Shown: positions 54,907 to 55,959 of the stretch, in pieces
How the letters are laid out: each line of letters begins with the position of its first letter
How positions within the stretch are numbered: the first letter of the stretch is position 1
NCBI RefSeq assembly: GCF_002906255.1
Contig: NZ_POTC01000013.1
Location: 1-64,000 of the forward strand
Length of the DNA stretch: 64,000 nucleotides
From: Novacetimonas maltaceti
GTDB lineage: Bacteria > Pseudomonadota > Alphaproteobacteria > Acetobacterales > Acetobacteraceae
Direction: 5' to 3'
Translations under genes and position numbers: made by a program
The notes under the pieces: generated by a model
Database searches by the model: none
What the model saw: only the letters and a program-made list of their open reading frames with translations
Told to the model about the DNA's origin: nothing

Positions 54907-55114
54907 AAACGGGGATTCCATACGATCCCATGGCCTGTCCGCGCCCGGATGACGGGCACCCACGTCCCGCAATATTTACCGGAATGGTCCGGGGGCACAA
55001 ATAATCATGGTTTCTGGCCCGGATATTCCTGATTCTGTTTGTTACAACATTCGGCCTTACATTCCCGTTTCCACGGCACAATGTATTGGAGGTCGAATTA
55101 AAGGATATAATATT

Positions 55115-55450
55115 ATGAAGCGTTCAATTCTGTTTGCCCTTATGCTTGGTGCCTCCCTCCCGCTGGCCGCCCAGGCCCAGTCGTCGGACCAGAGCCAGGG
55201 AAGTGAGCAGGGCGAACATCATGGCCATGGCGGTCACGGCCATCACGGTGGCCATGGCCACAACGGCGGCCCCGGTGGCGACAGCCAGAATGGCGGTGAC
55301 CAGAATGGTGGGCCGGGTGGCGAACATGGTGATCGTGGCGGTGAAAACCGTGGCGACCGGGACCACGGCCCCGGTGACCGTGGCGGTCGTGGTGGCGATC
55401 GCAATGGCGGTGGATGGAACCAGAACAACAACAGTTCCAGTTCCAACTGA
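55115..55450 (+). CDS. Small secreted Gly/His/Asp/Asn-rich protein
   Basis: A 111-residue protein: signal peptide MKRSILFALMLGASLPLAAQAQ followed by low-complexity sequence of GHGGHGHHGG and GGDxNGG-type repeats, ending NNNSSSSN. No fold is expected; the His clusters could bind Ni, Cu or Zn. AAAGGATATAATATT precedes the ATG. It lies 208 bases after the PadR gene and resembles the His/Gly-rich arm of that protein, so the two may be linked. It has its own terminator. Confidence 0.75.
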   Translation: MKRSILFALMLGASLPLAAQAQSSDQSQGSEQGEHHGHGGHGHHGGHGHNGGPGGDSQNGGDQNGGPGGEHGDRGGENRGDRDHGPGDRGGRGGDRNGGGWNQNNNSSSSN

Positions 55451-55467
55451 TCCAGCACTGATCAGGG

Positions 55468-55497
55468 AAAGGCCCGGCATATTGCCGGGCCTTTTTT
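55468..55497 (+). terminator. Rho-independent terminator of the secreted protein gene
   Basis: AAAGGCCCGGCA / TGCCGGGCCTTT, a 12-bp stem with a TAT loop and a following T-run. Confidence 0.95.
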
Positions 55498-55652
55498 GTC
55501 ATGGGGGAAAGAATCCCTGCCCATTCCATCTGCCCGGTGGCAGTGCGTGCAGGGGGCAGGGAATTCGCGGATGATATCCCATCTTCCGGATCGGTCCCCT
55601 CACAGGGGGCCGGATTGGGCGGGATCGGATGGAACTGTCCGGTAATGTATGT

Positions 55653-55959
55653 TGGTGTCCGCGGCGGGATTCGAACCCACGGCCCCAGGATTCATCCCAC
55701 TTCGGCTTTCACCGCCGCCACCATGCGATGACGTTCGTGGTCTGGACTGTCCCTTCGCCATGGACCCGCCAGCGGGTCGGTAGGCGCTGCCCATCCAGTC
55801 TCTACACCTTCCCGGCGCGATGCCGGGCTTGGCTCGGGATTGGCACGGCGTCTGGCCAGAGCTTTCCCCGAATTTGAGCAGATCCGTCACGTGGTTTCCC
55901 GTCGTGACGCCCAATTTCTACCAGGAATCCTGTGCTCTATCCTGCTGAGCTACGCGGAC
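55653..55959 (-). tRNA. tRNA-Arg(CCT), interrupted by an intron
   Basis: Read on the minus strand, exon 1 (55959-55923) is GTCCGCG plus D-arm and CAGGATTCCT; exon 2 (55692-55653) is AATCCTG plus variable loop, GGGTTCGAATCCC and CGCGGACACCA with encoded CCA. Joined they form a complete 77-nt cloverleaf with anticodon CCT in loop TTCCTAA and a 7-bp acceptor stem. The 230-base insert lies between positions 36 and 37. tRNA-Arg(CCU) is a known host of group I introns in bacteria (Agrobacterium). Confidence 0.93.
55693..55922 (-). ncRNA. Group I self-splicing intron in tRNA-Arg(CCT)
   Basis: The 5' exon ends in U and the 230-base insert ends in G, the two fixed bases of group I splicing. On the minus strand the insert has the core blocks CGGGAAACCACG, CTCAAATTCGGGGAAA, CCCGAGCCAAGC, GAAGGTGTAGAGACTGGATGG and CGAAGGGACAGTCCAGACCACGAACGTC, in the order seen in the Azoarcus tRNA-Ile intron (P3 to P8 with the GTAGAGACT of P7). 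The subgroup is likely IC3. There is no room for a homing endonuclease gene. Loss of splicing would cost the cell this arginine tRNA. Confidence 0.92.

Follow-up and report, generated by a model that had tools for sequence, protein, structure and literature searches.

A group I intron in the anticodon loop of a tRNA-Arg(CCT) gene of Novacetimonas maltaceti

A tRNA-Arg(CCT) gene of Novacetimonas maltaceti is split in its anticodon loop by an insert that we read, with a probability of about 0.96, as a complete group I intron, ORF-less and of the kind known from bacterial tRNA genes, which would be excised from the tRNA-Arg(CCU) precursor by a guanosine-initiated reaction. The gene was found in a window of 64,000 nucleotides, the whole stretch of DNA analysed here (contig NZ_POTC01000013.1, positions 1 to 64,000). 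Gene structure, insertion site and predicted fold follow from the sequence and from covariation with related introns (Table 1). From homologues, we infer that the intron splices, and that it does so without protein.

Table 1. Features of the split tRNA-Arg(CCT) gene and of its intron, in positions of the window.
Feature	Positions	Strand	Remarks and basis
Whole split tRNA-Arg(CCT) gene	55653-55959	minus	5' end at 55959, 3' CCA at 55653
Exon 1 (5'), to last anticodon base T	55923-55959 (37 nt)	minus	sequence; ARAGORN intron mode
Group I intron	55693-55922 (230 nt)	minus	terminal G at 55693; ARAGORN, RF00028, profile, covariation
Exon 2 (3'), CCA encoded	55653-55692 (40 nt)	minus	sequence; ARAGORN intron mode
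Internal guide AUUGGG (P1 and P10)	55910-55915	minus	sequence
P2 hairpin, GAAA loop	55885-55909	minus	both-side change in 8 of 9 pairs; 86.8% of cells paired
P3, 5' strand	55876-55881	minus	99.0% of cells paired; both-side change in 4 of 5 pairs; Rfam
P3, 3' strand	55787-55792	minus	Rfam and covariation
P4-P5	55834-55871	minus	P4 strands 55866-55871 and 55834-55839, the same in all 21 rows
P6 and P6a	55806-55832	minus	covariation analysis of A1
P7, 5' strand, guanosine-site helix with bulged A	55796-55802	minus	all 6 pairs present in each of the 21 rows
P7, 3' strand	55744-55749	minus	covariation analysis of A1
P8 and extension	55756-55786	minus	covariation analysis of A1
P9 (55737-55740 with 55697-55700)	55697-55740	minus	encloses P9.1 and GAAA-capped hairpin
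P9.1	55717-55732	minus	inside P9
GAAA-capped hairpin	55703-55714	minus	inside P9

Exon 1 ends in ...CAGGATTCCT, while exon 2 opens with AATCCTG and closes with the encoded CCA. With introns allowed, ARAGORN called a tRNA-Arg(cct) of 77 bases, with an intron of 230 bases inserted at 37-38, which is well-formed after removal of the insert. A U stands ahead of the 5' splice site, and the last intron base is a G. The initial annotation had placed an ORF-less insert of 230 bases, preceded by U and ending in G, after the third anticodon base of a tRNA-Arg(CCT) gene. Sequence inspection and the intron mode of ARAGORN agree with it on these points, and its coordinates are exact. No meaningful ORF lies in the intron; an ORF of 104 aa (55600-55914, minus strand), spanning the intron and the 3' exon, was taken as chance. 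The warning in the initial annotation that tRNA finders may miss the gene was also justified. In default mode, the one call that ARAGORN made across the window was a tRNA-Met; the split gene was left out, and the Rfam tRNA model missed it as well.

The Rfam model RF00028 matched positions 55881-55787 on the minus strand with 34.5 bits (E 5.7e-7; model positions 50-157 of 253), a stretch that runs from P3 through P6 and takes in the 5' strand of P7, and a whole-genome search gave the same place. At gathering score, which is 50 bits for RF00028, Rfam returned no match at the intron locus. The initial annotation had predicted a hit from P3 to P8; a match was indeed obtained at the above E-value, but it stays below the gathering score and takes in only part of the core. 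The assignment to group I itself holds, based on this match, on covariation over 21 introns and on guide complementarity. A nucleotide profile built from 18 introns, with the three rows of the own genus excluded, gave a single match in the window, at 55917-55693 (E 6.5e-56), and nothing else at E up to 10. Folded by plain minimum energy, the gene was unremarkable (z -1.21, with 12 of 100 shuffles as good), and the evidence is therefore homology and covariation, not stability. The P2 and P9 hairpins of the intron are GAAA-capped. The intron may belong to subgroup IC3, a placement based on features of the Azoarcus intron.

The RF00028 search provided 28 loci (L001, L056-L082), in 21 of which the intron mode of ARAGORN found a tRNA; the seven others (L056, L075-L078, L081, L082) were excluded. 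The 21 introns, our own included, were aligned with short exon ends and without the use of structure (alignment A1). In four rows the boundaries were shifted by a few bases to fit the U/G rule, a judgement call that renames the tRNA from His to Arg in L062 and L067 and from Ile to Leu in L070, and leaves it unclear in L080. For P2-P9, 56 pairs (1167 cells) were assigned manually on the own row; the 5' exon is misaligned in rows L064 and L073, and P1 and P10 were omitted from the count. Overall, 95.5% of the cells were paired, both sides had changed in 36 of the 56 pairs (168 cells), and the covariation score was 0.433. Shuffled means were 81.8% paired, 20.3 both-side-changed pairs, 45.2 cells and a score of 0.162, and no shuffle out of 500 came as high. 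When the partners were displaced by 1 to 3 columns, 31.5-42.4% of the cells were paired and the scores were 0.062-0.108. Covariation supports P3, P5, P6a and P8. P4, P6 and five of the six P7 pairs are invariant, so that covariation is uninformative there and their support is identity alone; the sixth P7 pair is GC, AU or UA across the 21 rows. An 11-nt tetraloop receptor of the Azoarcus kind was not seen in P5 of the own row, and for this reason we do not claim an L9 contact.

The guide is complementary to the exon junction, its GGG pairing with CCU of exon 1 (P1) and its AUU with AAU of exon 2 (P10), and in P1 the 5' splice site is marked by the expected U-G pair. AUUGGG is found in 13 of the 15 tRNA-Arg rows of A1, all 13 of which pair three plus at least three bases with the junction. 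Guides vary with the host tRNA: those of the non-Arg introns L058, L059, L064 and L073 pair 3 to 6 bases with a differing exon. The automatic guide search found only 2 bp in L070 and, in L067, settled on something other than the expected guide (1-bp P1); by eye, the guides are GAGU and ACUGGG, respectively. Among a wider set of 45 tRNA-Arg introns (alignment A2), 36 have AUUGGG and nine ACUGGG. The latter guide preserves P1 and weakens P10, and its introns mostly start with TGTT, a combination that may reflect another P10 pairing. Since these 9 of 45 guides pair less well with the 3' exon, the strength of P10 is uneven across tRNA-Arg introns.

In the precursor RNA, the intron would fold into P1-P9. 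P7 would bind an external guanosine, which would attack after the U of CCU, held in place by GGG of the guide. The freed exon would then attack after the terminal G, lined up by the AUU-AAU pairing, the exons would join as CCUAAU, and the intron would be released. Group I introns in general react by this two-step chemistry.

Further CCT tRNAs were searched for in the draft genome (3.63 Mb, 162 contigs, completeness 99.99). Used as a query, the joined tRNA found its own two halves at 100% and, elsewhere, weaker tRNA matches only. The Rfam tRNA model gave 45 matches above cut-off, and none of their anticodons, as read by ARAGORN, was a second CCT. A 46th match (L055), under the cut-off, yielded no tRNA with ARAGORN. 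A second intact tRNA-Arg(CCT), named in the initial annotation as a point that would tell against it, was hence not seen among the 45 tRNA matches of this draft. The genome does have a tRNA-Arg(TCT) gene (L014, called by ARAGORN). Because this tRNA might read AGG by wobble, we refrain from calling the split gene essential.

The ORF adjoining the tRNA is holA, encoding DNA polymerase III delta (TIGR01128, E 2.6e-47), and leuS is next. HolA is 91% identical to that of Gluconacetobacter entanii, which we take to be a member of Novacetimonas although NCBI's list for that genus does not include it, 86% to that of Novacetimonas hansenii and 84% to that of N. cocois. The window accordingly falls in the Novacetimonas group. 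All 18 named holA loci (entanii, hansenii, cocois, 14 Komagataeibacter and one Acetobacter) have a tRNA-Arg(CCT) intron of 222-253 nt immediately downstream of holA, ARAGORN placing the boundary at 33-34 in one of them (L171). Compared with the 12 tRNA-Arg introns that other genera contribute to A1, ours is 64-82% identical.

A covariance model made from A1 (R1), the training of which included some of the genomes later searched, matched 185 of 397 family genomes, including four of four from the same genus; in the own genome, it matched nothing besides the tRNA-Arg(CCT) intron. RF00028 matched 24 of 100 relatives at E up to 1, four of them over the cut-off, in a search run with stricter filters, which lose weak matches; of the 60 among these relatives that are family genomes, it matched 17, two over the cut-off, whereas R1 matched 32 of the same 60. 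At gathering score, RF00028 overlooks almost all introns of the lineage. A match to the uninterrupted tRNA (E up to 1e-17) was detected in 195 of the 397 genomes, and at the 30 such loci inspected ARAGORN always read CCT. Twenty-seven genomes have both kinds of match, and 44 have neither. In the three overlap genomes whose intron host was inspected, it was tRNA-Leu (G017, G266) or a tRNA-Thr together with an unclear tRNA (G027). HolA lay within about 1.5 kb of 29 of the 30 best R1 loci, 3 of 12 other tRNA-Arg intron loci and none of 30 intron-free loci, counts in which divergence of holA and short flanks may conceal some cases. The neighbourhood is therefore common to close relatives only, and holA synteny was set aside as a marker of vertical descent, being good for the closest relatives and present at just those 3 of 12 other loci. 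The intron-free alleles inspected may sit at a different genomic place from the split gene.

Related introns also occur in other tRNAs. Applied to 62 chosen sources, R1 gave 58 matches, one of which was a chance match of 35 bases, while another (L056) was cut by the contig end. Of the 56 usable matches, 45 have the tRNA-Arg 3' exon AATCC, 44 of these also with GATTCCT on the 5' side in register, and eight have the tRNA-Leu 3' exon AAAATC; tRNA-Thr (L064), tRNA-Lys (L073) and an unclear tRNA (L080) account for one each. ARAGORN itself named tRNA-Leu(taa) in L058, L059, L150 and L153; L070, L143 and L145 were re-read manually as tRNA-Leu. All seven are introns in tRNA-Leu(TAA)-type genes, and L081 was placed by its 3' exon, with no tRNA call. 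Nine tRNA-Arg introns received other names from ARAGORN (His or other Arg anticodons) because the boundary was shifted, and these are the nine with ACUGGG.

The intron in tRNA-Thr(GGT) (L064:1496-1726, genome G027) follows GGT, and its guide GCC fits the exon. We know of no tRNA-Thr host of such an intron in print. A literature search for bacterial tRNA-Thr group I introns, in the portions of text it returned, gave no recognisable report. Genome G027 holds a second intron (L080:1501-1726), whose host ARAGORN called tRNA-Leu(tag); under the U/G rule, its spliced anticodon loop has an odd length. The intron in tRNA-Lys(TTT) (L073:1496-1741) comes from a genome of the same class and another family (G070, 77% complete) and has a 6-pair guide to the side of GACTT. 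Three genomes (G004, G020, G023) carry a tRNA-Leu-type intron together with a tRNA-Arg intron, and G012 has two R1 matches.

When the guide and P2 are included, a single branch of the tree (support 100/99) separates the 45 tRNA-Arg introns, ours among them, from the rest. Without everything upstream of P3, they need two changes, and we therefore do not claim a strict single origin. Across the related set, the introns measure 207-288 nt and are thus too short for a homing endonuclease. It is conceivable, though on balance doubtful, that in Acetobacteraceae and their neighbours one intron lineage was repeatedly re-aimed (Arg, Leu, Thr, Lys), its guide being rewritten for each anticodon loop and tRNA-Arg becoming the most widespread host. 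If the spread took place by reverse splicing, the lineage would be a natural series for watching transposition at the RNA level.

Other explanations of the split gene were weighed. A reading outside group I, be it an insertion by chance, a pair of pseudogenes, a group II intron or one of the archaeal type, has a negligible probability: we found no points in favour of this reading, and the RF00028 match, the covariation, the U and G at the splice sites, the guide complementarity and the profile E-value of 6.5e-56 all contradict it. It is also very improbable that we are looking at a decayed group I intron which no longer splices, with a dead tRNA gene and AGG read by tRNA-Arg(TCT) through wobble. 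As that tRNA exists, the cell might manage without the CCT tRNA, and our view of splicing comes from homologues, not from RNA; against decay, however, the other 20 rows of A1 share P4, P6 and five of the six P7 pairs unchanged, the exons join into a well-formed tRNA according to ARAGORN, and R1 matched in each of the four same-genus genomes.

Splicing might also require a protein helper, e.g. an RNA chaperone or a synthetase. We consider this unlikely, and the intron of the Azoarcus pre-tRNA(Ile), reportedly termed self-splicing by Tanner and Cech in 1996, speaks against it. Such helpers have been described for group I introns (PMC3984707), and some reliance on protein factors in vivo is presumed, but the Bartonella homologue self-splices in vitro (both in PMC7717549). 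A complete group I intron, likely splicing by itself, is the reading that we retain.

A few other features of the window deserve mention. The contig starts in the end of an rRNA operon (1-219), with a 5S rRNA cut at its 5' side followed by tRNA-Met(CAT), probably because the assembly broke at a repeat. The stretch 55007-55500 carries an ORF of 147 aa with a long Gly/His/Asn/Asp-rich low-complexity tail; after it, a terminator-like hairpin with a T run is visible by eye near 55469-55497. Weak Rfam matches near the intron locus (STnc390, SorX, Thr_leader, anti-hemB, beta_tmRNA) were well under their cut-offs and were discarded; the four of them within 55402-55503 have one terminator-like hairpin in common.

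The finding alters no established idea. It points to an annotation gap, as the default mode of ARAGORN, the Rfam tRNA model and RF00028 at gathering score all miss the split gene, and such genomes can therefore seem to be without tRNA-Arg(CCT). Moreover, the wider intron set offers a dense natural series for the study of group I evolution.

Among known systems, the Azoarcus intron has GAAA-capped P2 and P9. In this feature it resembles our intron, both being small group I introns of tRNAs, but it sits in another tRNA, P9.1 is extra in ours, and our P5 and P8 sequences are unlike those of Azoarcus. The Azoarcus pre-tRNA(Ile) ribozyme is assigned to group IC3 (PMC3984707). The tRNA-Arg(CCU) introns of alphaproteobacteria such as Agrobacterium have the same tRNA and the same insertion right after CCU, in another host genus. 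Group I introns of this kind, including that of Agrobacterium, were reportedly described by Paquin, Heinfling and Shub in 1999 (J Bacteriol 181:1049). The same tRNA-Arg(CCU) also hosts BbgpI of Bartonella bacilliformis, for which there is experimental evidence and to which the likeness lies in host tRNA and intron class. Bartonella belongs to another alphaproteobacterial order than Acetobacteraceae. According to PMC7717549, BbgpI splices in vivo as well as in vitro, there by itself, and its intron family sits in tRNA-Arg(CCU).

Within acetic acid bacteria, one tRNA(Arg) interrupted by a homologue of group I introns is on record (PMC4596401, Table 1 footnote c), with Asaia bogorensis, Acetobacter pasteurianus, Gluconobacter oxydans, a Komagataeibacter strain and Gluconacetobacter diazotrophicus as hosts. 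Like ours, that record concerns a group I-like insert in a tRNA-Arg of Acetobacteraceae; Novacetimonas is absent from the available rows, and the available passages give neither anticodon nor structure. A literature search for Novacetimonas and introns, with most subscription journals outside its reach, found nothing. Since the split tRNA(Arg) of acetic acid bacteria and splicing in Bartonella are already in print, the mechanism is not new, and the intron described here is a new record of an already known family.
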